Assembly: GCA_009746045.1 (NCBI GenBank)
Contig: RPFO01000104.1
Span: 1,081,076 to 1,145,075, forward strand
DNA length: 64,000 bases
Reading direction: 5' to 3'
From: Mesostigma viride
Taxonomy: Eukaryota > Streptophyta > Mesostigmatophyceae > Mesostigmatales > Mesostigmataceae
The notes below the pieces were generated by a model. The model had not been told where the DNA came from. It made no database searches and saw only the letters and a program-made list of their open reading frames with translations. Below are positions 9,934 through 38,034 of the stretch, piece by piece. The position numbers and the translations under genes are program-made. Numbering within the stretch: position 1 is the first letter of the stretch; every line of letters begins with the position of its first letter.

Positions 9934-11424
9934 ATGGCTGCTGCTGCTGCTGCTTTGGAAAACAAGTACCTCTCTTTTATTCCAGCATGTTCCAAGGCAA
10001 TTCCCAAGTTTGATGGTTCTTCCCTGCCAAAATGGGGAGAGACCAAGGAGCTTTTCCAAGCCCACCTGGAGGCCTATGATCTGGAGGGGGTCATCACCGA
10101 GCCTGAGGAGGCTACACCCAAGCAAGAGAAGGTTGTTTACACAGCCTTGCTGGCGTGCCTCACTTGCAGAGCAGCCCAGATTGCAAAGACCATTGGTGAG
10201 AGAAAGGGCAGTTTGCTTTTTGCTAAGTTGGTGGAGGTGTTTGAGCAGCCTAAACTGACCAAGAGCAACAAGCACGACCTGAGGACATCCCTAATGAGGC
10301 TGACTAAGCAGCCCAACCAGTCCATGATGGACTATCTTACCGGTTCAGAACTGCTTCTGAGTGAGTACAGGGATGTGGGGGGGGGTGTTGGCAGACAATG
10401 ATTTTGCCGCTGCGCTTAAAGGTGGTTTACCTGATGCGTATAGGCCTGCCCTCGTTTCCACCAGGTTCGATGAGGACATGTCGCTGCTGGAGGTGAAGAA
10501 GGCCATGCTTGAAGCAGATGACCTGCTTGTGGGGACGCGCTCCACCACCACGGTCAAGCCTGAGCCAGCAGCTGCCCAAGGCCAAGCATACAGCACAGGC
10601 CAACCAACCAAGCCGGGGAGGCCGACTTGCACATTCTGCGGAAAGGACGGACATGCGGAGGAGACGTGCTATACCAAGTACCCACCTCTCAGCAGGAAGA
10701 AGGGCCAGCAGAGGCCAAAGCGCAAGAACCAGAAGAAGAAGCAGGCTGTGACAGCGAACAACACGGTGGAGGCTCCTGAGCTTCCCGTGGACTACGCGTT
10801 TGCAACTACGCGCCTAGTGCCGGGCGTACCTTTCTGGATTCTGGACTCTGCTGCATCCAGCCACATGAGCCCTGAGGAGGCTGACTTTATCAAGGTTCAG
10901 CCAACCAACCTGGCCATCCAGGGCTCCGGAGGCCGGCTGAAGGCTGTGGGGACGGGGACGCTCAAGCTACGCGTCGCCAACAAGGTGGTGCATCTGCCTC
11001 ATGCTCTGCACGTGCCCTCTCCGGGTGACAGGCTTCTTTCCGTGGCCCAGCTGCATCAGCAGGGACACGAAGTGAACCTACTGCAGGGCGTGGCATGCTT
11101 TGCAGGCAGCAAGGTACCTATCAAGGTGCAGAACAACGTCTACGGTTTGCAAGAATCACAGACTGTGACTACCCCTGCTGCCCACCACACCACAGACAAC
11201 CCTGCTGCACTATTGTGGCACTGGCGACTTGGACATGCAGGTGCTGAGCGCATTCGCAAGCTGGCGGCCATACCTGCATCGAACATTACCATGCGGGCTC
11301 CAGGTGCGCCAGGCTGCCCGTCGTGCCCTGCTGGCATGATTAGGCGACGCTCCTTCGCTGCTGGGCAACCACGCTGGACCGTGCCTCGTGCCAAGCTGCA
11401 TGGGGACATCATGGGGCCGATGCA
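9934..11424 (+). CDS. Copia gag-protease-integrase N-terminal part, interrupted
   Basis: The first ATG after the primer site (9934) opens a gag with an alanine run, followed by a UBN2-like gag domain, a CCHC zinc knuckle (CTFCGKDGHAEETC, nucleotides near 10628), a lysine-rich tail, and a retropepsin signature WILDSAASSHM near 10845. A GAG-pre-integrase block (LWHWRLGHAGAERIRKL) and CPSCPAG follow. One frame change occurs at a run of nine G (about 10377-10385); eight G would keep the frame. The reading frame stops in the integrase at GDIMGPM because a YR retrotransposon is inserted after 11424; it resumes in phase at 18133. The order gag-PR-IN is that of Ty1/copia. Confidence 0.85.
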
Positions 11425-11578
11425 TCCTCTGTGCATGCTTTCAGGTTCACTTTGTTTGAGAAGGCACCAGAACTTGTTTATTGCAAAATTATATGCTTAA
11501 GCCGCTTGCAGGCCTTGGTAGACCGAGAGACTGGCAAATTGTGCGCAAGTCCCAGGCGGCTGCCACCATATAACACCC
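11425..11578 (-). repeat. YR-1 B2 repeat
   Basis: 154 bp matching B1 at 12103-12256. In the sense direction it holds an AATAAA followed by a GT-rich stretch, consistent with the transcript 3' end. Confidence 0.88.
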
Positions 11579-11627: not shown

Positions 11628-11631
11628 AAAA

Positions 11632-12102
11632 CTGATAAAGCATGCGCCGCCATGTCTTCCTCAATAAATTGGCTGCATTGCATGCGCACGGTGACGAATG
11701 CAAGTCCGGTACAATACTGGCGCGGCGCCTAGGTGCCACTGACCAGTTGTACTACAAAGAACCCACTTGTACTGATTCTTTCGACATTGTACTACGTTTA
11801 GTAACTGTCTACTTCAACCCAGGTGGTCATACCACCTCCTAGGCAGGTTGTGCTACACCTGAACGAATCTTTACTAGCCTGAGCTAGTTTGAACTAGTTT
11901 GAAGTAGATTGTACTACCCTGTAGTACCAATGAAGTACTTTGAACTACATCCAAGTACTTGGAAACAGTCCAGAGGTCATTTGCAGGGACTTTCACCCTT
12001 TCCAGGAGCATTTCTCGCAGATCAGCCATGAGGCAGCGGCACCGACTCGCACTCCGCTCCCCTTAGTCGCAAATCAGGGAATCCAGATCGTAAGATCAAC
12101 CA
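11632..12102 (-). repeat. YR-1 A2 repeat
   Basis: 471 bp matching A1 at 17662-18132 almost perfectly (for example one A/C difference at 11802 versus 17832). It contains several short GTAGTAC and AGTTTGAACTAG motifs shared in spirit with the A repeat of YR-2. Confidence 0.9.
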
Positions 12103-12256
12103 TCCTCTGTGCATGCTTTCAGGTTCACTTTGTTTGAGAAGGCACCAGAACTTGTTTATTGCAAAATTATATGCTTAAGCCGCTTGCAGGCCTTGGTAGA
12201 CCGAGAGACTGGCAAATTGTGCGCAAGTCCCAGGCGGCTGCCACCATATAACACCC
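12103..12256 (-). repeat. YR-1 B1 repeat
   Basis: 154 bp matching B2. It is directly joined to A2, reproducing the junction expected in the circular integration intermediate. Confidence 0.88.
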
Positions 12257-12592
12257 GCATCTCCAACCTGGCCGTCCCCGGCCGCATCTGGAGTGGTTGT
12301 AGAGGGGGAAGCCCTAGCGTGGCTGCTAGAGTGCGCCTCCCCTGCACCTGTCAACGCAGGTACCCGCAGAGCCCTAGTGTATCCACTAGAGTGCGCCCCG
12401 CCGGCTCTGTCCAAGGCAGGATACGGTCGAAGGTTAGCCAAACTGGAAATCAGGATGATGGCGCGACGCCCAAAACCAGCAGGGCCCCAGCGTGTCCACT
12501 GGAGTGCGCCCTGCCGACTCCTCCAACGGAGCTGCATCGTTTTATACTGCGCCCCCCCGGCCTAGACCGGGGCAGGCGCATCCCCACACTGG

Positions 12593-15500
12593 CTACTGCC
12601 AGTGTGAACTCCACTGAGCGGGGGGGAACTCCTCAGCCAGCAACCACACCCACCGCGGCACTTGCACCGCTAGAGCACGGTGCAGGCCCACGTAGTGGTC
12701 CACCGACTTGAACTGGCGCCAACGCCCGCGCTTCTGGATGTCTGGGAGTGAAACGCCCTGCAGGTAGTCGTACGTTGCCCCACCATGTCGCATGGAGTAG
12801 GGCGGAAACATCCCCCGCAGGCCCAGAACATCCCACGCCGCGTGCCACCGACGAGAGAACTGGCTGTAGTTGAGGCTCCCAAACAAGGGCTCCTCGGGCT
12901 CCCGCCCAGCGCACAGGCGCTCGAGCACGTACAGCGAGAGGGGGTCCTGCACCACCACCGCCTGTGCACCCCCCTTGGCTGTCTTGGGATCCCGCAGAAG
13001 CAGCGCGCCCAGGCCTCGCTGCCCCAGGCGACGGTCGCCGCGCAGCGCCACGTCCCCCACTCGGAGCTTGAAGGCCTCCCCGATGCGCAGGTATTGCTGG
13101 AAAGTGATGACGCACACGGCTGCTGCCATGGGCGCCCCCTGCCAGCGGAGGATCTGCACCACCAGGTAGAGCAGCTCCCACGGCACCGGATTGGGGCTAT
13201 GGGTTTGCACGCGTCGCTGCCACCCGTACAGGAGTCGGCGGGCCTCGCGCCACCCCTGCACTTGGCTGGGGTAGTACAGTTGCAGCCCACACAGCGCCCT
13301 CATGCACATGGAACGCCCTGCTCCCCCTCCATCCTCGTAGACAGACACGAGCCACTCGCAGAACACGCTCTCCGCTTCCTCCGGCGGTACAGCACCATAG
13401 GGCTCAGCCCAAAGAAGGTACGCGATCACTGCGCGATGGTAGCTGCGCAGGGTCGCGGGCAGCACGGTGCTCTCCAGTAGCTCCTGCCGCCCTCCCGGCC
13501 CCGGGTTACTCTCCACATCGCCATCGGCGGTAAGGTCCCGCACCCACCGGCCCCGGCTGGGCGCGTCCGCGGGGTTTCGCTCCGAGCGGATGTACACCCA
13601 GTGGTACCTGGTGTTGCTGGCACAGCCCAGGGCGGCAGCGCGGCGGCACCACGTGTTGAGGCGGTAAGATGATGACCGCCCCTTCACCAGTGCGCCCAGA
13701 ACGGCGGAGCTATCCACCAGCCGTACGTGCCGTCGCCCCCACCGGGCCCGCGTGCGCAGCCCCCACTCCAGGCTCTGCACGGCTGCGCGCGCCTCTTTCT
13801 CATTGATGTGCGCACCCGCGTCCCTCCACCGGTGTTTCACCGCCACACGCCAGCGGGCGGTCGCCACCGCCCGATGTTCCCTCTCCCCCGTTCGCTCCAC
13901 ACCGACCTCTTCCGACCCGACACACAGAGTCTTCCACCCCTTCATCTCACGGCAGTTGGACAAAGCTTTCACGTCTGCCTCTGCCAGACGGGCGTACACC
14001 ACACCGGAGCCCCGGCTCGACGCGTCACTGGCCACGACGGTGGTGTCCAGCGGCTGGTTGCGCTGCGCATGCACCAGGGGAGCCAGGCAGACAGCCGCCC
14101 AGAGCTCCCGGCGCACACTTGCCCAGAGTTGGAAGCGTCCTCCCTTGCGGAGGGCCAGCACTTGGTGGAGCATCCTGTAGGCATGGAACCAGATGCTTAG
14201 CAGACTCCTGCGAAGCAGTTGGATCCATACCCAGCGTCCCAGTAGGGAGGCCAGCTCATGGTAGCTTGCTCGTCCCCGGGCCAGCACCGCCTCAGTGTCA
14301 TGGACGAGGAGGGCTAGTCGCTTCGCCGACGGCCACAAGCTCCCATCTTGGTGAAACTCGATGCCCAGGATCTCCACAGCTTGGCCCTCCCGCGCCCGCT
14401 CGACCTTTTTCTCATTCACCACCAGGCCAGCTGGCGCGTAGCACTCAGTGCATGCGCGGTCCAGCAGCGCGTTCGCCTCCGCTGCGCTGCGCGCGTGTGT
14501 GGTGCCCAGGTCGTCGATCATGACCAACTGCGCCGGCCGAGGAGGGTCCTCGGGCAGCAGCTGCCAGTCAAGCTCGGCGGCCCCCACCAACTCCATCCAC
14601 TCCCGTCCTCCCTCACGCACTGTGCGCACCCCGAGCTGATGCATCGGGACGCTCACACTCAGCCCGGGGTTCAGCTTCCCCGGCCCGAACAGGGTCTGCA
14701 TGTGCGCCACCTGCGCCAACAGGACCGAGTGGGACCACCCCATCACCAGAACACGGAACCTGGGATAGAGCCGGCGGCGCTCCCCTGGTTGGCCGACCTC
14801 GTCTGACCAGACTGGGGGCAGCGCGAACCACTTCCGCCACTCCGTTGGCACAGAGAAGCGGTAGTAGTACGTCTCCAGGTCCGTTTTACTCGAGTAGCTG
14901 GGCGCGCCCCCGGCCATCTCGGCCACCGCCCCCACATCTGGCAGGTAACAGCTGCCAGGGGTGAGGAACTTGTCGTTGCTCTGCACCATGTTGCAGATGA
15001 GTCGCTGGCGCTGGGCTGACGGGTCCACCACCCCTGGATCGCGCTTGGGCACGCCGAACAGGCCGTTGGTGACCGGTGGTTCCTCCTCGCTATACTCTGT
15101 CATCCCGGTCTCCGCCAGCCGCACGCTCAGGCGCGCGTACTCCGTGTCGCTCGCACAGCCATGCGTTACTCGCCGTCGACGCCCTGGCTGCGCTGCCTCT
15201 TCCCTCAAAATATTTTTTATATTGCCATATACCTCCCTCCACTGGGGGGGAGGCAGTCCATCAGCGGCACGCTGCCCGCCACTCCGCCCGCGGGCAGCGC
15301 AAGTCTCTCCGGGGCAATTATTTCATATTGCCCGTCGGGCCCATAGGGCCCAGACTCAACGTCATGCACCAGGTCCTCTGCCGCTACGGCTCTCAGCCGG
15401 CGCTCATGGACCTGGGCGGCAATCTCCAGCCCTTGTAGGGCCGCCTGCTGGGCCGCAGTGCAGGGGGTCACTAAGGACACCCCGCTGGTACCGCAACCCG

Positions 15501-15734
15501 CGGGCTCCTGGGCAACAGGTGCGGGCAAAGCCATCCGCATGCCACCGACAGGACCCGTTTCAGGCGGTTCCTGTGCTCCCCTCCACAACCAGTTGAGGCC
15601 ATCCACGATTCGCGCGCTGCGCAGGAGCAGGGCCCGCCGCCGCATGGCCCGCTGATACCTACGTCGGGACCGTAGGCGCGCGCGGTCGAGGGGCTTGATG
15701 GCCACCTCTGGGAGGGGGAATACACCTCGCCCTC
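12593..15734 (-). CDS. YR-1 pol: RT - RNase H - 2A - tyrosine recombinase
   Basis: The long open stretch (15208 to 12593, 871 codons) plus the preceding frame form the polymerase. RT landmarks are KTDLETYYYRF (first aspartate) and LVMIDDLG (the xxDD box, near residue 228). RNase H shows VVASDAS, NEKEARAAV, RLVDSSAV and NPADAPSRG. Directly after RNase H comes LTADGDVESNPGP (13496-13534), a perfect 2A motif. The recombinase follows, with YLRIGEAFKLRVGDV (first arginine), SMRHGGAT (second arginine/histidine), RGRW and DHYVG (likely nucleophile). The N-terminal pol segment (15734-15217) is in another frame because of a C7 run near 15250; eight C would join them. Gag ends at 15735 and the gag-pol junction mechanism is unclear. 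Confidence 0.9.
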
Positions 15735-17471
15735 TCACTTCTTCTGGGAAGAGCCCGCCACTCCTCCCTCCGCCTTGTCCTCCTTTCCTCGCGCCGACGC
15801 CAACGCATCGCGCTCCTTCTTGTGTGCCCGCAGCGCTCGTCGAGCCGCCCGCGTGCGGACACCCCCTGCCGGCCGGTAGGGCAGCATGTACCCGGACGCG
15901 TTCCAAGACCCGCTGGTCTCCACCAGCAGGAGAGCCTCCACGCAGAGCGCCAGGTACTCCACGCCCGCCAGCTCGCTGCACACGTTGGGACTGAGCTCCT
16001 TGTTGAGCGTATCCCAGACGTGGCACAGGTTCTGGGCCAGCTCCATCCTCTCCTTGGATGCCCACCCAAGTCCCGTCCCCTCCTTCTGCTGGCGCAGCAC
16101 GGGGGCCCTTTGCACGTTCAGCCAGGCCACCATGTTGCCGTTGTGGCCCTGTATGGCGGTCTCCATGTGCTTGGGGGCCGTGCGCTGGTGGTACTTGTGG
16201 TCTTCCACGTCCCACACCACGCTGAGCGCCCGCCCCGCCGGCAGGTACTCGAGCAGGTTGACCCCGCGGGTAACTGGCAGGTCGGTCAACCTCCCACCTG
16301 TGCCCCGGCCACCCGCGCGCCCTCGCCCGCTCCCCTCCGAGTCGCTGCTCGTGCTGTCGCTGGACGTGCACCGGCAGTGCCGATGCCCGCACTCCCGGCA
16401 CTTGGACCGCTTGCTCTCCCGTTTCCTCTGCCCACCTTGGGCTGCTGCGAGCGCCATGTGGTACGGGGTTCCAGCCGCTGGCACCCAGGTACCGTACGCG
16501 GTACCCGCTGGTGGGTAGGGCTGAGGCCAGGCTGCACCCATCTGCCCTGGGTAAGCGTACGCTGGGCCCTGCGTTCTTTCCACGCCTGTCGGTGTGCCCG
16601 GGTACCCATGGGGCCCGCTTGTCCACCCGGCAGGGCTGGGCCCTGCTGCCCCCGCCCCCCCCATGCGCCTCCTTCCTGCACGCTGGGTGCTGGCACCCGT
16701 ACTGCGGCTCCCAACCCCTGGGCGCCGCCAATCCCCAGCTGTTGGAAGCCCCCCATGAGGGCATTCATCTGCGCCATCATTTCGGGGCTCAGTCCCATTC
16801 CGGCCGCCCCGTCCCCCTTGGCACTGCGCGGGAGACCTGCTTTCTCCTCTTGCCTCCCCCGCGCGCGCCCGCTTTTAAAGTGCCTGAGCGTGGCACTGCA
16901 GACACCCCCTCGCCTCCCCAAAACTAGCGCCAGCCGCGTTTGCCAAGCTCCTCCCTGCATTTGCAAGCTGTTTCCTGCCATCCCCTCCGACGACAGGCGC
17001 CATATGACCAAAAACGGCGGGAAAAACGGCACCTGGTGCGCCAGCAACTGTGCTAGCACCTGGGGGGCGAAATCCCTGCGCCTGCTCCTCTTTGGCCCCC
17101 GCCAAAGCTTCCCCGACATCAGTGTCCTCCTCTGAGGAGTCCCCGTTCGGTTCCTCATCGTTTGTAATGCCTGTTGTACCTTGTGCTAACATTTTCGCCA
17201 CGTTGGCTGAAATATTTTGCGCCAGCTCCTCACGAGTGTCATACCCATTGATTTCAAACCCAAAGATCCGAAGCTTTTCTGCCAAACTTCGTAACTTGTT
17301 TTCCGAGCTACGCAACAATATTTTAGGGTATTCAGAGCCGAGTTTTGCTGCTATAAAATAGGCGACAGCTGAGGCGTTCCTGCCATGGTTCACATAGATT
17401 TCCTCCACACGACTCGCAAATCCGCGCGGTAAATCCCCCGTCTCGCTAGCGTTTTCATCCCCGCTAGCCAT
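15735..17471 (-). CDS. YR-1 gag-like ORF1 (frame-broken)
   Basis: An ATG at 17471 opens a protein beginning MASGDENAS, parallel to MASDHEDTT of YR-2. The N-terminal part (to about 17050) is acidic and helical. After frame changes the C-terminal part (16664-15735) contains a glycine/proline/tyrosine-rich stretch, a CRECGHRHCRC cysteine/histidine cluster, a serine-rich RS-like segment, and a conserved helical block (NLCHVWDTLNKELSPNVCS...VEYLALCVEALLLVE) that aligns with the C-terminal domain of the YR-2 gag. Its likely role is nucleocapsid/RNA binding. The frame breaks may be real or assembly errors. Confidence 0.65.

Positions 17472-17619: not shown

Positions 17620-17661
<42 letters not shown>
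17575..17661 (+). mobile_element. Retroposed 3' end of a YR transcript with a 40-nt poly(A) tail
   Basis: The insert reads antisense to YR-1. It holds AATAAA at 17596-17601, then the B-repeat sequence ending CTTCTC at 17620, then 40 consecutive A (17621-17660). It is flanked by CTGAT at 17570-17574 and 17662-17666, and removing it restores the GAAAACTGATAAAG sequence found at 11626. So it is a short, polyadenylated cDNA inserted with a 5-bp target duplication, probably by LINE machinery in trans. Confidence 0.75.
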
Positions 17662-17666
<5 letters not shown>

Positions 17667-18132
17667 AAAGCATGCGCCGCCATGTCTTCCTCAATAAATT
17701 GGCTGCATTGCATGCGCACGGTGACGAATGCAAGTCCGGTACAATACTGGCGCGGCGCCTAGGTGCCACTGACCAGTTGTACTACAAAGAACCCACTTGT
17801 ACTGATTCTTTCGACATTGTACTACGTTTAGTCACTGTCTACTTCAACCCAGGTGGTCATACCACCTCCTAGGCAGGTTGTGCTACACCTGAACGAATCT
17901 TTACTAGCCTGAGCTAGTTTGAACTAGTTTGAAGTAGATTGTACTACCCTGTAGTACCAATGAAGTACTTTGAACTACATCCAAGTACTTGGAAACAGTC
18001 CAGAGGTCATTTGCAGGGACTTTCACCCTTTCCAGGAGCATTTCTCGCAGATCAGCCATGAGGCAGCGGCACCGACTCGCACTGCGCTCCCCTTAGTCGC
18101 AAATCAGGGAATCCAGATCGTAAGATCAACCA
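17662..18132 (-). repeat. YR-1 A1 repeat
   Basis: 471-bp copy of A2. Its outer end AAGATCAACCA meets Copia sequence at 18133. Transcription of the element presumably begins in or near this repeat. Confidence 0.9.
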
Positions 18133-22525: not shown

Positions 22526-23034
22526 TGATTGATCTTACGATCAGGATTCCCTGATTTTGCCTGGGGGAGCGGAGGGATGGAGGTGCGCCGCTACCTTGGA
22601 GGCGCTACACCGTTGCCCAGTGGTGCAAGTCGACATGCGGGAGCCAAACGGGATGGCCACGCCCTCTCTGGAGGGTCTGACAGCCTTGGATGGGCCTCAG
22701 ATGTAGTTCGAACTAGTTCAAAGTTAGTACAGGTAGTACCATCTAGTTCAAACGAGTTCAATCTACTTCAACTAGTATCCAGGGACCCTCAAGATATGCC
22801 AGGTGGTTGCTGAACGGTTTTGGCATGACAGAACATGTGTGACATCATAAAAATGTAGTACAATGTTGAAAAAAGTAGTATCAGGGTCCTAGATCTAGTA
22901 CAGTAGTATTCTGAGGTCATTCTTACATGGAGCGCCGCGCCAGCGGGGCGCCGCACTTGCGTGTGTCACGGATGCAACGTTGATGCGATGTATTTCAAGG
23001 TGGTTATGGCTGCCAAGGCAGCTTATGAGTTTTC
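22526..23034 (+). repeat. YR-2 A1 repeat
   Basis: 509 bp, matching A2 at 28183-28700 apart from a short insertion in A2 within a CTAGTTCAAA repeat stretch. Rich in AGTTCAAA/GTAGTAC motifs. Confidence 0.9.
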
Positions 23035-23277
23035 AACACAACTAGAGCAATACTTCACCGTTTTTGACAAAGTTGGTGTCAAACTAATCGTGAGACAATA
23101 GCCGACAATATTTTGACGGTTTTCGCACCAAGTTTTGACGGGTTTGCGCAACGGGAGTAAAAGTCCGCAAGGTAGAACTGAGTGACAAATTTTTTTAGTC
23201 CGAAATTTTTCTCAGTCTCCAAGATTGTAGAATATTGAGCCTAGTTGTGAGAAATTTCTTCATCTTTGAATTCTATA

Positions 23278-23988
23278 ATGGCTAGTGATCACGAAGACAC
23301 CACCCTTGAGGCAGTAGACCGAGATTTCTTATTAAATGTGAAAAAATCGTATTTTCAGGGGGGCAAGGAGCTGTTAACGACTTTGAAGTTCTTGACTGAG
23401 TATCTCGGTCCAAACTGGGCCCAAAGGCTTACTACTATGTCTGAGGGTCGTTTGACATCCTTGGGACAGTTTCTCAAGACTGCAGGGCTCCAGATTAGTG
23501 AGGGGTCAAGTGATTCCGACATGGGTTCCATGTTGTGCAAGGCCATTACTCTAGAGATGAAGAAGCCCCCAGTGGCCACTGGGGGCAAGGGGAAGACTGG
23601 TCCAGCCAGGGGCGAAAGGACCCGAAAGGATCCTCCCAGCAACGGCACCGACGAGGAAGAGGAGGACGCGACGAGCTCTGAGGATTTTTTGGACGCGCGC
23701 GAGCAGCTGGCCCCTGCTGCTGCTCGCGCCAAGGGAAAGAAGTCTCAGGGCAGGAACCGAAAGCTGGCAGAGAATGCTGCCCTTCTGGCGGGCGTCCGCG
23801 AGCTCATCGGAGCGGAGTTGCAAGCCCTGGCGCGGGGGAAGAGGAGGGACGCGAGGAAAGGGAAGAGCCAGCGCGAGGACAAGGGGGGCAAGGGCCATCC
23901 GAAGAGCAAGCGCCAGGAGAAGAGACGCGCGCGGCGCGGGAGCAGCCCAGGCTCGACAGACACCAGCAGTGGGAGCGACGAGAGTCGC

Positions 23989-24069
<81 letters not shown>

Positions 24070-24810
24070 TCCGACAGCGAGAGCAGAGGCCGTGGCAGGG
24101 GCAGGGGTGGCGCTCGGTCGCGCCGCGACAAGTCCCGGGAGCGACGTGGGCATGGCAGGGGCCGTTCTGCGGAGCCCAAGGGGCGTCGGGATCGCTCCCG
24201 CGAGCGTCGCAAGGAGCGGCAGCGGTCCAGCAGCCGGAGCACGAGTCGGGACTCCTCCCAGCGGAGCTCGCGTCGATCGCGGGAGCGTGTGAGGGAGAGA
24301 GACCTGCGCCGAACCACCAAGGGGGTGCGTCTCCCCCGGCGAGCTTTCAAAGTGGCCTGGCGCCTGTTGGTCAAGGACCGCGACGACAGGGTGCTGCCGC
24401 TGCAGGTGCTGGATGCGCGCCAGGTCGCGCACGGGAGCCTGCAGGCCCGCTTGGCCCTTCGCAAGGAGCAGGAGGGCGTTGGGGCTGCACCGGGAGCCCC
24501 CCGCGGGTGGAAGAACAGCACGCACCATCTGGTGTGCAACAACCTGACCTACATTCTGGATGTGGCCATCCAAGAGCTGGGGGAGGATGTGGTGACGGAG
24601 CTGGCCTGCTTCGAGTACCTGGCGCGTGTGGTCGAGGCGTTCCTCATGGTGGAGAAGACCAGCGGCTGGAACAACGGGGCGATGCACCTGCTGCCACTGG
24701 TGGAGGGCAGTACTATTGGAAGCGCAGCAGCCCGGGCAGCGCGGAAGGCGGCTCGCCAGGAGGCGGAGCTGGCATCGGCGGCGGCGGCGGCGGCCAAAAA
24801 GGACAAGTGA
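23278..24810 (+). CDS. YR-2 gag: SR-rich, polyserine protein
   Basis: The ATG at 23278 (MASDHEDTT) is chosen because YR-1 has an equivalent start; the open frame before it has no ATG. The 510-residue product has an N-terminal helical domain (about 1-90), an acidic then highly basic linker, an uninterrupted serine run of more than 20 residues coded by AGC repeats, a long RS/SR-dipeptide region (about 275-345) like those of splicing factors, and a C-terminal helical domain (about 400-480) conserved with YR-1. It ends in an alanine-rich, lysine-tipped tail. It probably coats the RNA; the RS region may direct it to nuclear speckles or be phosphorylated (inference). Confidence 0.8.
23990..24062 (+). 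repeat. AGC trinucleotide microsatellite inside gag
   Basis: About 24 tandem AGC units, coding the polyserine tract. A repeat of this kind would vary in length between copies. Confidence 0.95.
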
Positions 24811-27800
24811 GGGGCAGGGGTGTGCTCCCGCTGCCAGTGAAGATGGTCCCCCGCTCGACCGCAGCCGCCTGCGATCCAACCGCAGGCTGCAGCGCGCTCT
24901 GCGTGCCAGAGCAAGGCTGCGGTGTCAAGAGCGGGCCACAAGGGGCCTGAACTGGCTGTGGGGCAGGACCCGGGAACGGTCCGGTGGACCGGCGGTGCAG
25001 CAGCAGGCTATTACTGCGAGCCCCTGCACCGTCGCCCAAAGGGCCGCCCTACAAGGGATGGAGGATGCTGCCCGCGTCTACAACCGCCGGCTTACCGCCG
25101 TAGCGGAGGCGACAGACACGGGGGACGCAGAGCCCGCGCCATACGGGCCGGGCGGTCAATACGAAATTATTGACCCGGAGAGGCTGGCACTGCCAAAAGG
25201 AGGAGCTGCAGGTAGTGTCAAGCTGCTGGACTGCCTGCCGGAGGCATGGCAGAGGACGTATGAGGACATAAACAACATTCTACAAAGATGCGACGCGGAG
25301 GCGGGGGCGTGGATGCGGCGGGGCCGGGTGTCTCATGGTTGTGCAAGCGATGCGGCGTACGCACGACTGAGCATCAGGCTGGCGGAGACGCGGATGATCG
25401 AGTACAGTGAGGAGGCGCCGCCTGTGGTGAACGGCTGTTTTGCCGTCCCCAAGAAAGACCCCGGGGTTGTGGAGCCCAGCGAACGACGGCAGCGGTTTAT
25501 AGGGAATATGGTGCCGTGCAACCGGCGCTTCCTCAAGCCGCCTACCTGTTACCTGCCTAACTTGGGCGAGGTCGCTGAGCTGAGTGTGGGGGCGCCATGC
25601 TATTCGGGCAAGACAGACCTTGACACCTACTATTACCGGTTCGAGGTACCTGAGAGCTGGCGCCCCTATTTCTCGCTGCCCCCCGTGTGGTCCGATGAGG
25701 TCGGCCAGCTGGGACGACGGCGAAAGTTGTACCCCAGGTTCCGGGTCCTTGTCATGGGCTGGAGCCACTCGGTGGTCCTTGCACAGGTTGCCCACCTGCA
25801 CTGTCTCTACGGGGCGGGGTGCTCGATGCCAAGAGAGGGCTGTCATATCCCATGCACTTGATGGGGGTGCGCACAGTGCGCGGGGATGGCATGGACCGGC
25901 TGGAGTTGGTGGAGAGCGCAGCCAGTGCAGCGTGGCGGCTGCTGCCGGAGGATCCCCCACATCCCGCTCAGCTGGTCATGATCGATGATCTGGGGGTCAC
26001 CCATGGGCGGAGCGCGGAGGAGACCAACGCCGTGCTCACCAAGGCGTGCGAGGAGAGCTACGGTCCCAAGGGGTTGGTGGTCAACGAGAAGAAGGTGGAG
26101 AGAGCTGAGGAGGGGCGCCCGGTGGAAATCTTGGGGATTGAGTTCTGCCAGGACGGGTCCATGCGGCCGAGCGCGGCCCGGATGGCGGCCTTGGTGCGCG
26201 ACACGCAGGCAATGCTGGGGCGTGGACGGGCCACTTACCACCAACTGGCCTCGTTGCTGGGACGGTGGGTGTGGGTCCACTTGCTGCGTCGGGGTCTACT
26301 GTCCATCTGGTTTCACGCCTACCGCTTGCTGCAGCAAGTCCTGGTGCACAAGCGGGGCTGGAGCTATCGGCTGTGGGGTAGTGTAAGGGAAGAGCTCCAG
26401 GCTGCAATGGACTTGGCCCCGCTGGTGCATGCGCAGCGCGACCAGCCCCTGAGCTGCACCGTGGTGGCCACTGATGCGTCAACCCACGGTTCTGGGGTGG
26501 TGTACAGCCGGTGGGAGGCGCCTGCGGTGCGTGGCCTGTCCAACTGTCGGGAGCGGAAGGGCTGGAAGACGCTCTGTGTGGACTCTGAGACGGCCAGCGT
26601 GGAGCGCACAGGGGAGATTGAGCACCGAGCCATGGCAGCGGCGCAGTGGCGGACCGCTCTTGCCCACCGGTGGCTCGATCCCTCGGCCCACATCAACGAG
26701 AAGGAGATTCGTGCGGCTGTGCAAGGGATCGAGTGGGGCCTGCGCTCACAGGTTCACTGGCAGCAACGTCACGTGCGGCTGGTGGACAATTCGGCAGTTG
26801 TCGGTGCGCTCGTCAAAGGGCGTTCGTCGTCCTACCGGCTGAACGCCTGGTGCCGCCGGGCGATCGCGCTAGGGCTGGCCAGCAACACCCGCTACCACTG
26901 GGTGTATGTGAGGTCGGAGCGCAACCCGGCCGACGCGCCCAGTCGTGGTCGATGGGTGCGCAACCTCACTGCGGATGGCGACGTGGAGAGCAATCCGGGG
27001 CCACATGGGCGGCAGGAATTGCTGGAGGCCACTGTGCAGCCCAGCACGCTAGCTGCATATCACCGAGCGCTGAGGGCGTACGTGGAGTATGGTCAACCCC
27101 TCGCTCCCGTGGCCAAGACGGAGGCGGAAGGCGTCTTTTGTGAGTGGCTGGTCAGCGTGTATGAGGAAGGGGGAAGCCGGACCATGGTTGTGCGCGCATT
27201 ATGCGGGCTGCAGCTGTACTTCCCCAACGAGATTAAGGGGTGGTACGAGGCGCGTCGCTTGCTGGCCGGCTGGGCGCGACGAGTTCCCGTGCAGAGCCCT
27301 CACCCCGTCCCGTGGCAGCTACTGTACCTCGTGGCAAACATTCTTCGTGCACAAGGCTCGATATTAGCTGCCTGCTGCTGCATCATTGTTTTTCAGCAAT
27401 ACTTGCGCATCGGAGAAGCGTTCAAGCTTCGCGTGGGGGACGTGGCTCTGCGCGGGGACTTCCGCCTGGGGCCCAGTAACCAGGGTGCGCTGCTGCTACG
27501 CGACCCCAAGACAGCCAAGGGCCAGGCCCAGGCAGTGGTGGTTGTTGAGCCCCTTTCACTCACGTTGCTTGGCGCCCTGTGTGCTGGGCGGGCGCACGAG
27601 GAGCTGCTCTTTGGCGCACTCAGCTACAGCCGTTTCTTGCGGCGGTGGCACGCCGCCTGGGACCTCCTTGGCTTGCGGGGGATGTTTTCACCCTACAGCA
27701 TGCGCCACGGGGGGGCCACCCATGACTACCTGCGCGGGGTACCAATCGCGGACATCCAAAAGCGTGGCCGGTGGCGCCAGTTTTCGTCCGTGGACCATTA

Positions 27801-27969
27801 CGTGGGGCTCCACCGCGCCCTGCAGGTGCGGGTGCCCCAGGTGGTGTGGGACCTCGCGGGCAGACTGCCCCCCGTGACTGGCGTCGTCACTTTGGGCCGT
27901 AGATTTCGGCCATACTTCGGTGAGGCGCACTCTAGCGGACACGCTAGGGCTTCACCAGCTGGAGGGTAA
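24811..27969 (+). CDS. YR-2 pol: RT - RNase H - 2A - tyrosine recombinase
   Basis: Pol lies in the +1 frame relative to gag and may start inside its end; I place the left edge just after the gag stop. Landmarks match YR-1: KTDLDTYYYRF, LVMIDDLG, VVATDASTHGSG, NEKEIRAAV, RLVDNSAVVG, NPADAPSRG, then LTADGDVESNPGP (26965-27003), then the recombinase with YLRIGEAFKLRVGDV, SMRHGGATHDY, RGRW and DHYVG. One frame change near 25818 occurs in a G run (GGGGCGGGG); one more G restores the frame seen in YR-1. The catalytic residues of all three enzymes are present. The 2A predicts separate RT-RNase H and recombinase proteins from one message. Confidence 0.9.
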
Positions 27970-28036
27970 GGATGTGCCCTCCCATGGCTCCTGACGCGGT
28001 TTCCAGATGTACGGCCTGCGGCCAGGTTGGAGATGC

Positions 28037-28182
28037 GGGTCAAGTGGAAGCGGCGGCCAGGGACTGCCAAAAAATATTTTATGTCTCTCTGTCTACTAAG
28101 TCCGGTCGGCTTCAACATATAGTGTAATAAACAAGTTCTGGTGCCCTTCAACCAGAAGTGGACCTAGGCAATGCACAGTGGA
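28037..28182 (+). repeat. YR-2 B1 repeat
   Basis: 146 bp matching B2 at 28734-28879. Contains AATAAACAAGTTCTGGTGCC, almost the same poly(A) region as in the B repeat of YR-1, which suggests a shared 3'-end signal. Confidence 0.88.
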
Positions 28183-28700
28183 TGATTGATCTTACGATCG
28201 GGATTCCCTGATTTTGCCTGGGGGAGCGGAGGGATGGAGGTGCGCCGCTACCTTGGAGGCGCTACACCGTTGCCCAGTGGTGCAAGTCGACATGCGGGAG
28301 CCAAACGGGGTGGCCACGCCCTCTCTGGAGGGTCTGACAGCCTTGGATGGGCCTCAGATGTAGTTCGAACTAGTTCAAAGTTAGTACAGGTAGTACACTA
28401 GTTCAAACTAGTTCAAACGAGTTCAATCTACTTCAACTAGTATCCAGGGACCCTCAAGATATGCCAGGTGGTTGCTGAACGGTTCTGGCATGACAGAACA
28501 TGTGTGACATCATAAAAATGTAGTACAATGTTGAAAAAAGTAGTATCAGGGTCCTAGATCTAGTACAGTTGTATTCTGAGGTCATTCTTACATGGAGCGC
28601 CGCGCCAGCGGGGCGCCGCACTTGCGTGTGTCACGGATGCAACGTTGATGCGATGTATTTCAAGGTGGTGATGGCTGCCAAGCCAGCTTATCAGTTTTCC
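28183..28700 (+). repeat. YR-2 A2 repeat
   Basis: Copy of A1, directly following B1. Confidence 0.9.
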
Positions 28701-28714
28701 CCACCCACCCACCC
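28699..28714 (+). promoter_or_regulatory. C-rich (i-motif / G-quadruplex on the other strand) tract in the A2/B2 spacer
   Basis: CCCCACCCACCCACCC lies between A2 and B2. It has the same sense-strand polarity as the tract at 11612-11627 in the minus-oriented YR-1. Confidence 0.7.
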
Positions 28715-28733
28715 TTTTCTGTTTTGTCTTGGG

Positions 28734-28879
28734 GGGTCAAGTGGAAGCGGCGGCCAGGGACTGCCAAAAAATATTTTATGTCTCTCTCTCTACTAAGTCC
28801 GGTCGGCTTCAACATATAGTGTAATAAACAAGTTCTGGTGCCCTTCAACCAGAAGTGGACCCAGGCAATGCACAGTGGA
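28734..28879 (+). repeat. YR-2 B2 repeat
   Basis: Terminal copy of B1; its outer end CACAGTGGA abuts the piggyBac relic. Confidence 0.88.
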
Positions 28880-31241
28880 AGGGTCATTCCAGCCAGCAAG
28901 ACCAGGAGCTCACAAGCTCTGCTGACGAGTTGCTGTGCAAATGACATATGGCTCAGCGAGGAGAGCCGCCACCCTGCCGCCTGTCCACTGATTGGTGCAC
29001 AGCTCATCGGCCAGCTTGCTCAAGAAGCCAGCATGGCTGAAGATGTCAGGGCGGCCAGCGCGGGTGAGCTTGTGCAGGATGAAGGCGTTGGTAACCGAGT
29101 TGGCCAGGTGGCCAGTTGCAGCCCTGTGCCACCAAATGCGCGTCACGAGCGCATCCTGCACAGGGTATTCAGCCCCGAGCTGGTCCTGCAAGTCCACACC
29201 CTTGTAGGTCCCCCAGTAGATCGGCACCAGGCTGGGGGCAGGCACCGTGATGCGGATGTCGCGGCCCCCATGGCGGCTGACCTCCACCTCCGTGAGCGGG
29301 ATCCCCTTGGACGCCATCCACACCGTCTTCATGTCCTGCCACGCCACGAGGGTGAGCCCATCCTGATCGACAGCCCGCGCGTAGTCCCCCTGCTCCGGCC
29401 TGCGCCCCAGCTGGTCCTTGACCTCCCTGAAGGGAAGCCCGCGCCGAATTGGGCATGATAGTGCCCACCACCGGGTGGCCCTGCACGTCATGGAGCTCCT
29501 CCAGCATGTCGCGGCTGGTGTAGAAGCGGTCGGTGGCGATCCTTCACGGGTGCGGCAGCTCACCCGCCAGCATCTTGGTGATCCTATACGTGTGCTGCTC
29601 CTCGGGCAGCTTGTCGTAGGTGTGCGCGTGGTAGAGGAAGCCCGTCGGCCAGTCGCAGACGCAATACTGCTTGATGTGGAACGGGGAGGGCTTGGTCGGG
29701 TTATAGCACCGGATGGGGCACAGCTTGTGCCGTGTCGAGATGGAGCGCTCGTCGATGGCAGCCTGCTCCCCTGGCACGAAGTACTTCTTGTATGCCGCAT
29801 TCAGCAGCTCCTCCAGCCAGAGGAACTGGAAGAGCCTCCACTCGCGTGTCTGGCGGTTCTCAGGGCGGTCTGCGGTGTTCCTGAAATGGAGATAGCGGCA
29901 AATCTGGTCAAACCTGAACTCAGACATCACGTGCTGCAGGTTGACAGGAGCTGCAGCGCCCATGGGCAGCCCAGAAAAGTAGTCTCCCCTTGCAGGCAGA
30001 TGCACAAGCGACATTGTGATGATGATGCCCAAGAACTTGCCGAGCTCGTGGATAGACATTGGTGTCCAATCCCGAGCTCCAGCCTTGCCAGCAGCTCGCT
30101 GCTGATCAGCATACCGGTTGGTCTCAGCAACGATGGGCTCGAGCACAGTCTTGGGATCCCAAAACAGACGGAACAGCTCGAGAGGACCAAACCTGTGCGC
30201 ACGGCCGGGAATGTTCTTGTATGTCACCTTGCCGTCAAAGGCCGGCGCAGGTATCTCGGGCAGAATTCCATCCTCCGGCTTTCCTGTCCCGAAAATTCAG
30301 TCACCATCCTCCTGAGCACGACCAGCCGCACCGTCATCAGGCTGCTCCTCATCGTCGGACTCGACCAGGTCTGGCACCTCGTCCTGCTCCTCATCAGCGC
30401 TGCCTTCAGACTTGTCGTCTGCAGGCGGGGCTGGCTGCGGCCGACGCCTTCTGGGTGGATTCTGGCGTGCCGGTGCTCTGGCCGAACGGCCAGACTTGCG
30501 CTTGGCACGCTTCTTGACCGGGGAAACCGAAATATCCTCGCTGTCGCCATCGCTAGCTGAGGAGGGGTCAGATTCGTCGTCGGCACCCCCCGACACCCCA
30601 CCGTCGTCAACATCATCCTGCACTGCGGCATCGCCATCATTCTCATCGCCACCGTCACCATCTACCGAGCCTGCAGCCTCGGCGACCTTCCAATGATAAA
30701 CCTGCGCCTTGGTGAAGTCGTATTTCTTCGGATCGCCCTCGAAAAGACATTTCGCGATAGTGCATGCGCGGTTCAGCGACACTACAGACCCAGGAATGCG
30801 CACAGTATCATGATTTTCCCCGAAATTCTCGCGTGCCCAGCCAGCACCGAATATAGCCCGTGGTACCGAAAGCTGAGTTCCACGTCTGAGCAAAAATCCT
30901 GACTGCGCGCCACCGGGAGGCGACGCCATGACTGCCGTCGTTACTCGTCGTTTTCGCGGTCTTCGTCGTTTTGGCTCGTTTTGGTCATTTTTTTCGCGCC
31001 CAAAGTTACCTTTGGACCAGGGTACCCCCCTGGATATTTCTGTTCATAGCTCCCTGTCCAGGTGTCCAAAAGTAGCAAACCAGGGGTGTACGTGAAAGTA
31101 CAAATCTAGATCTCGAAGCTGGTCCAAACAGAATATTCAAAAGTTTGCTAGAATTATAGCTAGTTCTGCCACAAACTCGGTCCGTTTTAGTGGACTTAGA
31201 AAAACTCAGTCCACGAAAACGGACCGAGTACGGTTTAAGGG
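28880..31241 (-). mobile_element. piggyBac-like transposon, right end present, left end lost
   Basis: The element carries a decayed transposase gene and has one recognisable terminus at 31241, CCCTTAAACCGTACTCGG read inward, next to TTAA (31242-31245). The subterminal region repeats CGGTCCG/ACTCAGTCC motifs also found at 38400 and 49830. The other terminus is missing; only about 30 bp separate the transposase stop from the B2 end of YR-2, so the YR insertion or an associated deletion removed it. Confidence 0.75.
28910..30929 (-). pseudogene. piggyBac transposase (DDE_Tnp_1_7 type)
   Basis: Read leftward from ATG 30929: an acidic, basic-patched N-terminus (including KKRAKRKSGRS, a possible nuclear signal), then the transposase core starting near 30230 (ELFRLFWDPKTVLEPIV, FLGIIITMSLVHLPARGDYF). 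The catalytic aspartates appear as ATDRFYTSRDM, a second in VAWQDMKTVWMASKG, and a third in YKGVDLQDQL, the order used by piggyBac. Two in-frame TGA codons (30297-30299 and 29544-29546) and a one-base insertion near 29455 break the gene. Both TGAs could come from CGA by C-to-T change. A cysteine-rich C-terminal finger is not seen. Confidence 0.85.
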
Positions 31242-36063: not shown

Positions 36064-36318
36064 ATGCATAAAGTTAAAACGTTAGCCTCCGACAATCTGG
36101 AGCGTCCGATGATGGATCCAACGGCCGTGATAAACCCGCTAAGCTATAGGCTCGGGTCGTCCGTCCAAATACTACACATAAACAACCAATACAAAACAAG
36201 CAAACTACGGAAAACAAACGGCCTTCGGCCCCAACGGTCACAAATCCAACGGAAACGACCCGAAATCGATAACACCACCAAAACGACGCAGCCGCAGGCC
36301 AGTGACGCCGCAGCCACC

Positions 36319-36765
36319 ATGCCGACCTCTGACGACGGCGAAAGCCCCCAATACCTCACGCCCACCAAGGCCACGCAGGCGGATTTCGGAGGGCAAACTC
36401 CTAGAACGCCGCAAGATGAAATTGACTCACTGGTCGACGTCGGCAGGTGCGCGAAAAGCGCCCTCGAAAGTATTACAAAGAAAAGGCAGAGGGACGACGA
36501 CGGAATCCTAGTGGAGATTGCCTCGGCCAAAAAAAAGATGGAAGAAACAAAGGCGCAGATCCAAGTGATCGCCACAGAGGTGCACAACCTCCAGATGAGG
36601 CGAGGATGGTTTAATATTCAAAAGCGATATAAGCAGGAGCAGGAGGAGGTTGAGCGACTTGAAAACGATCACAAAAACAAACGCCTGGCGGCGGCCGACA
36701 AGCTCTACCAGGTGCTTCCCCTGCTTATAGATGCAGTGGAGGGAATAACCTACCTTCAACAATGA
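36319..36765 (+). CDS. HUH-element ORF1: coiled-coil protein
   Basis: The ATG at 36319 sits in GCCACCATG, an ideal eukaryotic context, which is why I prefer it to the upstream in-frame ATG at 36064. The 148-residue product has a low-complexity, proline/threonine-rich N-terminus, a KKRQRDDD basic patch, and a long heptad-like charged helix (about residues 65-125, SAKKKMEETKAQIQ and YKQEQEEVERLENDHKNK) that should form a coiled coil. No enzymatic motif. Its TGA overlaps the next ORF's ATG as ATGA (36762-36765), so the two could be translated by termination-reinitiation. It may be an oligomerisation or DNA-binding partner of the transposase. Confidence 0.6.
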   Translation: MPTSDDGESPQYLTPTKATQADFGGQTPRTPQDEIDSLVDVGRCAKSALESITKKRQRDDDGILVEIASAKKKMEETKAQIQVIATEVHNLQMRRGWFNIQKRYKQEQEEVERLENDHKNKRLAAADKLYQVLPLLIDAVEGITYLQQ

Positions 36766-37358
36766 GCATATTCATCGATGATCAACCGGAGCATTCCAGT
36801 GAAAGCGAAGACGACGAACAAGAAGAACAAACACGAAGCGACCAGGACTTTATTGACGACGCAAGTGTCAGCCAGGGCTCGCCGCCGCCGAGGGAGCAGA
36901 CGCCACCTCCTGCTAGTCATGCAGCTCCCGGCACAAGTGCTAGTCATGCAACGGCACCTGCACCATTCACAGCAGGGTGTCAGTACTGCAAGAAGACTTT
37001 CTCCACCATGCGAGGCCTTAAAAGACACACGACTCAGCAGCACACGAACAGAATCCTTGAAGACAACATGCGAAACCTGTCCCTTGCACTCGTCCCGGTT
37101 CCTGCTGCCGACGCTCCGCCTCCAGTGCCTCCAGCCGACGTTCCAGCGCAAGACCCTCCAGCAGCCGCTGCACGTCGCCCGCGTCGTCGTCGCAATGCCG
37201 ACAATGACGATGAAGAACCAGCAGCGCCGTGCCCGGAATTCGTCGACGGTAAAAAAACAATCCCACCCCGCAAGGTCACTGCGAATCATGTTTTTCTTTC
37301 AATGGCGCGACTTCAGCATTACTGTAAACCCGCATGGCAACAGCGACGTCACGGATGA
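36762..37358 (+). CDS. HUH-element ORF2: acidic protein with one C2H2 zinc finger
   Basis: Starts at the ATG overlapping ORF1's stop. The first 70 residues are very acidic and proline/serine-rich. A C2H2 finger follows, CQYCKKTF...LKRHTTQQH (C73, C76, H89, H94). A proline/alanine-rich linker and an arginine cluster RRPRRRRN come next. Past 37257 the same frame reads into sequence whose real coding frame is ORF3's, so the functional part of ORF2 probably ends there. The change coincides with seven A (37251-37257): a +1 shift after AAA AAA would fuse the zinc finger to the HUH domain. A real frameshift, an indel or an assembly error are all possible. Confidence 0.6.
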   Translation: MSIFIDDQPEHSSESEDDEQEEQTRSDQDFIDDASVSQGSPPPREQTPPPASHAAPGTSASHATAPAPFTAGCQYCKKTFSTMRGLKRHTTQQHTNRILEDNMRNLSLALVPVPAADAPPPVPPADVPAQDPPAAAARRPRRRRNADNDDEEPAAPCPEFVDGKKTIPPRKVTANHVFLSMARLQHYCKPAWQQRRHG

Positions 37359-38034
37359 ACAAGCGCAGGTGGTGCACGACTGGCTTGATACACACGCCAG
37401 CCGGTGCTTCGCGGTGTGCGAGCGGGGTGCTGCTGCTGGAAAACTGCACATCCAAGCCGTCGCCACCATCTTCACGTCCGGATCCCTACCTGTCGCTAAA
37501 TCGCTGAAGGAGGCCCTGGGTTGGATTCCCCACGTGCCACCCGGTAGCAAGGTGATTGTTTCAGAGCTGGCAGAAAAGGACGTGCACACGTACCTGGGCA
37601 TGCTCGGGTATTGCAACAAAGACGCGCACAAACCGGCCGCTGACTTTCGCGTCATCATCGACGTAGGCAACACGCCTGCCATGATGGAGGACGGACGCAT
37701 TATTTTCATGAAGTACCACGCAACGTCAAAGGGCAAGGTCGCCCTGTCGCCATCCAACATTTTGCAGAAGATGGTGGCGTACATGAATGCAAACCGGATG
37801 TGGGAGGACATTGAGCCCGATGAATTGCTCCTCCACATGCACCGCAGCGGCCATTACGTTGTACACGACAGCTGGGTGGCACCAAAGAATGGAATTCAGG
37901 GCATGGTCATGAGCAGGGTAACAGCAGCATTAATATTAAATGGGCATGATGTAAACAGGAAAACACTGAGTCACGTGAGGAGAGTCTATTTTTATGATCC
38001 CAAACAGGCTGGCCGTGTCCGTGTGCCAAATTAA
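37288..38034 (+). CDS. HUH endonuclease (Replitron/CRESS-Rep-like), no helicase
   Basis: Three Rep motifs appear in order: motif I FSITVNPHG, motif II KLHIQAVATIF (an HUQ form of HUH, about 37441), and motif III YLGMLGYCNKD (about 37591), in which the tyrosine of YCNK is the likely nucleophile and the lysine is typical of CRESS Reps. The rest (LSPSNILQKMVAYMNANRMW onward) has no Walker A or SF3 helicase motif, as in Replitrons and unlike viral Reps. The product is 248 residues from the ATG at 37288; the true protein may begin upstream by fusion with ORF2. It would nick one strand and join ends for copy-and-paste transposition. An integrated viral Rep is the alternative; the partner ORFs and missing helicase argue against it. 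Confidence 0.75.
   Translation: MFFFQWRDFSITVNPHGNSDVTDEQAQVVHDWLDTHASRCFAVCERGAAAGKLHIQAVATIFTSGSLPVAKSLKEALGWIPHVPPGSKVIVSELAEKDVHTYLGMLGYCNKDAHKPAADFRVIIDVGNTPAMMEDGRIIFMKYHATSKGKVALSPSNILQKMVAYMNANRMWEDIEPDELLLHMHRSGHYVVHDSWVAPKNGIQGMVMSRVTAALILNGHDVNRKTLSHVRRVYFYDPKQAGRVRVPN

Follow-up and report, generated by a model that had tools for sequence, protein, structure and literature searches.

Two tyrosine recombinase (YR) retrotransposons with split direct repeats, found in a 64,000-nt stretch of the Mesostigma viride genome (the window), carry the peptide LTADGDVESNPGP in frame at the boundary between RNase H and the recombinase. On the sequence comparisons given below, it is highly probable that this motif is a 2A/StopGo recoding element by which such elements make two enzymes from one ORF. 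Each pol ORF would most likely yield an RT-RNase H and a separate recombinase starting with proline. The 2A motif is real and not a chance match, and it is very probably functional. This reading, which the first-pass annotation of the window had already proposed, is supported by a match to StopGo motif 4 upstream of the core, by the presence of the motif in five families, two of which were found by a search that did not require it, by variation of the kind that StopGo tolerates, and by a recombinase whose predicted start is collinear with XerD in weak matches.

The 13 codons of the motif occupy positions 26965-27003 on the plus strand and 13496-13534 on the minus strand, and the frame is open on both sides, which confirms that the motif lies exactly at the RNase H/recombinase boundary in both elements. 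A six-frame scan of the window found D.E.N.GP cores at these two places only. Since the reading frame is continuous at the RNase H/YR boundary, a programmed frameshift or stop at that point was rejected. The coordinates of both elements, designated family A (minus strand) and family B (plus strand), are given in Table 1.

Table 1. Features of the two YR retrotransposons in the window
Feature	Position	Strand	Basis
Family A element	18132 to 11423	-	A1 - ORFs - B1-A2-B2 split direct repeats
Family A repeat A1, 5' end of element	17657..18132	-	99.4% identity to A2
Family A upstream ORF, frame differs from 871-aa ORF	15217..16764	-	last part resembles N-terminal part of B pol, by eye
Family A pol ORF, 871 aa, RT - RNase H - 2A - tyrosine recombinase	12593..15208	-	motifs by eye
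Family A 2A/StopGo element (putative), WVRDLTADGDVESNPG/P	13496..13546	-	StopGo motif 4 match (PMC12846837, available part)
Family A tyrosine recombinase, 301 aa, predicted release with N-terminal proline	12593..13498	-	weak Phage_integrase/XerA matches
Family A repeat B1	12101..12256	-	100% identity to B2
Family A repeat A2	11628..12102	-	repeat comparison
Family A repeat B2, 3' end of element	11423..11578	-	repeat comparison
Family B element	22526 to 28879	+	A1 - ORFs - B1-A2-B2 split direct repeats
Family B repeat A1	22526..23034	+	97.1% identity to A2
Family B gag-like ORF, Ser/Arg-rich, overlaps pol in another frame	23266..24810	+	gag by position only
Family B pol ORF, 5' piece; frame changes into 3' piece in window copy	24626..25861	+	ORF list, L031
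Family B pol ORF, 3' piece: RT end, RNase H, 2A, recombinase	25819..27969	+	Phage_integrase PF00589, 30 bits
Family B 2A/StopGo element (putative), WVRNLTADGDVESNPG/P	26953..27003	+	sequence comparison
Family B tyrosine recombinase from 2A proline; C-terminal end unlike copy L031	27001..27969	+	Pfam, NCBIfam (L031)
Family B repeat B1	28037..28182	+	98.6% identity to B2
Family B repeat A2	28183..28699	+	repeat comparison
Family B repeat B2, 3' end of element	28734..28879	+	repeat comparison

The repeats within each element are 97-100% identical. Those of the two elements, which had been called otherwise different, are indeed diverged yet homologous, with about 62% identity between the A-type repeats and 70-73% between the B-type repeats. 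A third family, C, showed one flanking repeat pair. With a tyrosine recombinase and split direct repeats present, a LINE-type 2A element was rejected. Each of the copies in the window has a pol frame change upstream of the motif and no unbroken pol frame. The change in the plus copy lies at about 25819-25861, where another family B copy, L031, reads as one 1092-aa ORF. For the change near 15217 in the minus copy, 20 family A copies including that of the window were compared: 12 were identical and one had one difference, while the exact 30-base anchor near this site was not found in the other seven. This change (15217-15245, minus strand) directly follows a C-run (CCTCCCCCCCAG), and it may reflect either programmed frameshifting or a defect that became fixed in the source copy. 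A Pfam search with the gag-like ORF of family B gave no match.

A DNA stretch of 34-40 nt (GGGGAGGCGCACTCTAG...GCTAGGGCT), 82-90% identical in families A, B, and C, occurs once or twice per element: after pol in A (window 12305-12342 and 12370-12403), at the end of the pol ORF in B (window 27918-27958), and upstream of pol in C (L062, 1457-1496 and 1538-1577). It is perhaps a cis site. Elsewhere in the window, ORFs at 36064-38034 (plus strand) resemble by eye a Rep/HUH endonuclease-bearing element unrelated to the 2A finding, and pieces of a piggyBac-like transposase, also seen by eye, adjoin the family B element at 28910-30929 (minus strand).

In the family A pol protein, we take LVMIDDLG (MIDD) to be the RT box and DAS, NEKE, VDSSA, and NPAD to be RNase H motifs, assigned by eye as were the YR residues. 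The Pfam RT models matched none of the pol proteins searched, and RNase H gave only a sub-threshold match to DNA_pol_viral_C. With Phage_integrase PF00589 (cut-off 27.1 bits), family B scored 30.0, L031 29.0, and family C 27.7 bits; family A remained below the cut-off at 20.8 bits, although its pol protein is 71% identical to that of L031. Among the NCBIfam models, XerA weakly matched the family A recombinase (E 0.013). For L031, positions 10-74 of XerD aligned to residues 9-74 after the cut (E 0.019) and XerA matched residues 120-266 after the cut (E 1.5e-4), both far below the model cut-offs. The frame of families A and B is open through the motif into a recombinase of 298-301 aa, compared with 290 for the XerD model. 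Since the XerD and XerA matches are collinear, the proline-start product has the length and the start of a free XerD-type recombinase.

In the C copies examined and in the copy L074/L094 of a further family, H, the frame is broken further into the YR. A 300-aa piece of H that ends before the catalytic residues had no Pfam recombinase match, and H and the fifth family, G, were called YR via their homology to C and by eye. From the end of RNase H (NPAD..SR) to D12 of the core there are 11-18 aa, and from NPGP to the recombinase block 5-12 aa; with these linkers, there is no room between RNase H and YR for a stretch of the size of a methyltransferase, the domain that follows RNase H in the PAT-like subgroup. 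AlphaFold2 runs on the RNase H-2A-YR region of four sequences gave a mean pLDDT of 35.7 and no usable model, and a PDB sequence search gave a XerC-like match (E 0.031) and a proteasome subunit (E 0.28).

A 2026 survey of nearly 10,000 viral StopGo sequences describes, in the part of it available to us, a motif 4 whose signature, WV(R/K)DLTx[acidic]G, ends with G at p11 and goes together with D at p12 and S at p15 (PMC12846837). The same part reports that a natural motif 4 example gave almost 100% skipping in reticulocyte lysate and that activity was, with few exceptions, nearly lost when residues characteristic of the tested motifs were changed (PMC12846837). The context upstream of the core reads WVRDLTADG in family A and WVRNLTADG in family B; A fits motif 4 at every stated position, and B differs by one D-to-N. 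Family C reads WRRDLTSDG, its lineages having R or H for V, with A at p15. Families G and H keep W..DLT..G upstream, with P for R/K, RC for the x-acidic pair, and H at p14. In the available part of the survey, H at p14 is flagged as an infrequent variant of natural StopGo sequences that retains over 95% activity in its native context, and G at p12 is a common accepted core variant (PMC12846837). Thus, the StopGo core (D/G/C/N)(V/I)ExNPGP is present in A, B, and C, and G and H have the published active variant with H at p14.

These activities bear on the alternative that skipping is deliberately partial, both the fusion and the separate enzymes being needed, and that G and H, which carry H at p14, have a tuning unlike that of A to C. 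For sea-urchin proteins, the available parts of two papers describe a natural case in which StopGo is incomplete and leads to two fates (PMC4981915, PMC12846837), but the motif 4 and p14 = H examples, at almost 100% and over 95% in reticulocyte lysate in what is available of the survey (PMC12846837), make this rather unlikely.

The assembly to which the window belongs (440 Mb, 2243 contigs) was searched for further copies. D(V/I)ExNPGP occurred at 177 places, compared with none for the reversed control and about one strict core expected from composition in six frames of 440 Mb. Thirty core-pattern loci were cut out from 100 listed places of the 177, and 24 of them lay at the RNase H/YR junction (A 9, B 9, C 6), several being also in the family A pol homology set described below. 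Around the motif, L057 (C) and L059 (A) showed decay; L041 and L042 overlap each other. The other six were short ORFs, five of a kind designated D and one designated E. Eight further listed places, with unusual codons or of family C, added a lineage A2 near A, a short ORF F, and more C, D, and E copies; one C copy among them has DLTSNG upstream.

The short ORFs D (L033, L041, L042, L054, L055, L070), E (L040, L064, L065), and F (L063) share a leader like FIN(L/I/F)...R..(Y/T)WRA, which is followed by KRDLTKDGDVESNPGP in D, EKDLTADGDVEANPGP in E, and GWDLTRDGDVEPNPGP in F, with nothing recognizable beyond. No match to D or F was returned by Pfam. They may represent another type of repeat or gene family with a 2A in this genome.

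A search with the family A pol that did not require the motif gave at least 57 matches (best 52 of 2829 candidates scored). The core was intact in 29 of the 30 pol-homology loci cut out; L019 had lost the final proline of the core, and L026 contained a second copy with NPGL. Among the matches listed, 28 of 29 family A loci were 94-100% identical to the query and one was 88% identical. Since the copies within a family are thus mostly recent, the independent evidence amounts to about five families, not dozens of copies.

The search with the RT-RNase H of family C gave at least 86 matches (best 86 of 2044 candidates scored), and those listed comprised 17 C-like matches at 85-100% identity, five of family G at 64%, and 64 of family H at 61%. 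Only the beginning of the motif, RRDLTSDGD, was present in this query, at its end, so that the search could not favor the remainder. The G junction of L075 reads WVPDLTRCGDVHPNPGP and the H junctions of L074 and L076 read WIPDLTRCGDVHPNPGP. All 18 G/H junctions examined read DLTRCGDVHPNPGP (GDVHPNPGP) in frame, that is, 14/14 in H (from 64 listed matches; L074, L076, and 12 more) and 4/4 in G (from five; L075 and three more), the fifth G match ending before the junction. One of two C copies from this list has DVEANPGP, and the other, with stop codons upstream, has GVEANPGP, the StopGo form with G at p12 that is seen in the decayed family C copy L092 (G000:C1835:1144696-1144966). Consequently, the absence of the motif from other members, which had been named as evidence against a 2A, was not what we found, since 29/30 pol loci and 15/15 further G/H junctions keep it. 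YR families without the motif may exist beyond the best 52 of 2829 and the best 86 of 2044 candidates.

The listed A and B copies are packed into about 40-110 kb on several large contigs, for example C2 (3.846-3.921 Mb), C1391 (0.755-0.832 Mb), C1480 (2.258-2.369 Mb), C1579 (2.620-2.733 Mb), C1106 (8.850-8.892 Mb), and C1 (13.264-13.304 Mb), and the places listed for C, G, and H are dispersed. Among the listed B copies, at least one (C1469) stands alone. The A/B clusters, including the window, may be centromeres. DIRS-1 is located at centromeres in Dictyostelium.

Among viral contigs, protein scans for relatives found none, a DNA scan for DLTxDGD(V/I)ExNPGP gave 0, and one for GD(V/I)ExNPGP gave two stretches; their ORFs, 140 and 986 aa long, were viewed only around the motif. 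Relatives sought in phage records were likewise not found. The sole relative outside this genome among the matches listed, L001 on a contig of a Rickettsiales MAG (25% identity), shares a related RT-RH and a tyrosine recombinase, but these are in separate ORFs, with no motif and no repeats found. Therefore, the device is not general among YR elements.

Five families (A, B, C, G, H) keep the 2A at the RNase H/YR junction while the flanking linkers vary in length. Eight lineages (A, A2, B, C, C2, C3, G, H) were aligned, with 45-87% pairwise identity around the junction and 51-76% among A, B, C, G, and H; A2, C2, and C3 were found by a search demanding the core, so that they provide independent evidence only for the residues upstream. 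No variation was seen across the eight in the motif columns W, L, T, G, D, V, N, P, G, and P. Differences fall in the two columns that follow W (V/L/R/H/I and R/P), in D/N, x, p10 (D/C), p14 (E/H), and p15. Variation within the octapeptide is confined to p14 E to H, a free p15, and one p12 D to G, all of which are active in StopGo.

Between A and B, the eight core codons differ at four synonymous sites (GAT/GAC, AGT/AGC, AAC/AAT, CCG/CCA) and at no nonsynonymous site, as first reported; family B was represented by L031, and the window copy has the same codons. Over all 13 codons there are seven synonymous changes in 9.7 sites and 0 nonsynonymous changes in 29.3 sites, against 6.0 expected at the pol-wide rate of 0.205. 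Synonymous sites are nearly saturated between A and B (over 864 codons, 0.652 differences per site; dS about 1.5). Of 851 13-aa windows of pol, 24 are fully identical between A and B, one being the motif and the others lying around NPAD, FQQYLRIGEAFKLRVGD, and other conserved blocks; the motif is therefore as conserved as those blocks, not uniquely so.

This last result is in keeping with the alternative that the peptide is a structural linker or a protein-binding tail of RNase H, in which case an RT-RH-YR fusion would work as such and the 2A likeness would be convergent. The stretch also directly follows the conserved NPAD..SR end of RNase H. However, family A fits a StopGo class upstream of the core as well (PMC12846837, available part), the octapeptide variants (p14 E to H, p15, one p12 D to G) are all seen in active StopGo, and a like signature stands in the short ORFs D, E, and F, which have no recognizable RNase H; we consider a linker or tail quite improbable. 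The young age of most copies within families would also suit a relic, i.e., an ancestral 2A merely inherited under no current selection. This is highly improbable, as A and B show no nonsynonymous change in the 13 codons at a dS of about 1.5 and five families keep the motif beside linker indels; pure inheritance was rejected. A chance match, favored by nothing but the shortness of the core, has a vanishing probability in view of the 177 places against 0 in the reversed control and about one expected by composition, and of the search that found G and H without requiring the motif.

Under the preferred 2A/StopGo reading, the ribosome would first make RT-RNase H, and the nascent chain W-x-x-(D/N)-L-T-x-x-G-D-V-(E/H)-x-N-P-G would then disable the peptidyl transferase center. 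The chain would be released after the glycine of NPG, and translation would restart at the proline and make the XerD-like recombinase. We infer that skipping takes place in the M. viride host with some efficiency and that the enzymes are presumably separate in its cells, at some ratio and with relevance to transposition. In the DIRS-order model, RT-RNase H acts on RNA and the recombinase on DNA. Separation may help for this reason.

A broader proposal is an even call: StopGo may be a standing device for gene expression in an entire clade of YR retrotransposons, and no accident of a single element; it would replace the usual separate YR ORF and be old enough for five families to have diverged, with the E14H form having evolved in the family most numerous among the matches listed and a like signature in the D, E, and F ORFs. 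The host lineage may then use StopGo more widely than is thought for cells. The available part of the survey describes StopGo as mostly a feature of viral decoding, cellular cases being rare (PMC12846837). If the 2A/StopGo reading is true, StopGo would reach a second order of retroelements, and the elements would show how a single pol ORF supplies a free recombinase. Natural, long-conserved variants (E14H, RCG) would be available to test the exit-tunnel model, and two ideas would become testable, namely that DIRS-order integration needs a free recombinase and that the device was transferred between RNA viruses and retroelements.

With RT and RNase H as assigned here, the elements share their RT - RNase H - YR content with DIRS1, PAT/TOC/Kangaroo, Ngaro, and VIPER/TATE, and their A1 ... 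B1-A2-B2 split direct repeats are arranged as in PAT, Ngaro, and VIPER, as described in the available parts of three papers (PMC6681497, PMC4157794, PMC3266345). According to the same parts, DIRS1 encodes YR in a separate ORF, which in some cases overlaps pol, and in PAT the YR can be inverted (PMC3266345, PMC4157794, PMC6681497). By contrast with DIRS1 and PAT, RT-RH and YR are here in one frame with the 2A between them and no methyltransferase-sized stretch. The lack of a methyltransferase and the internal repeats downstream of YR in A and B are two of the traits by which, along with the RT/RH phylogeny, a Ngaro-like subgroup is recognized. No report of a 2A in a DIRS-order element was found in the literature searched, in agreement with the novelty claimed earlier, but key papers on 2A and retroelements lie outside that search and absence from print is not established. 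Accordingly, we present the finding as a known device put to a new use, in a retroelement order for which no report of it was found.

In non-LTR elements, the 2A stands near the N-terminus. Those of trypanosome L1Tc and of APE-type elements of sea urchin and others are likewise retroelements with a D(V/I)ExNPGP core, but they belong to a different order (LINE), whereas the 2A described here sits between two catalytic enzymes. 2A sequences are documented in non-LTR retrotransposons and in sea-urchin NLRs in the available parts of two papers (PMC4981915, PMC11512398). With viral motif 4 StopGo, family A has in common the octapeptide, G at p11, D at p12, S at p15, and the upstream signature with its spacing. 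The viral motif 4 sequences lie in virus ORFs, whereas family A has its own inside the pol of a retrotransposon, where RNase H meets the tyrosine recombinase.
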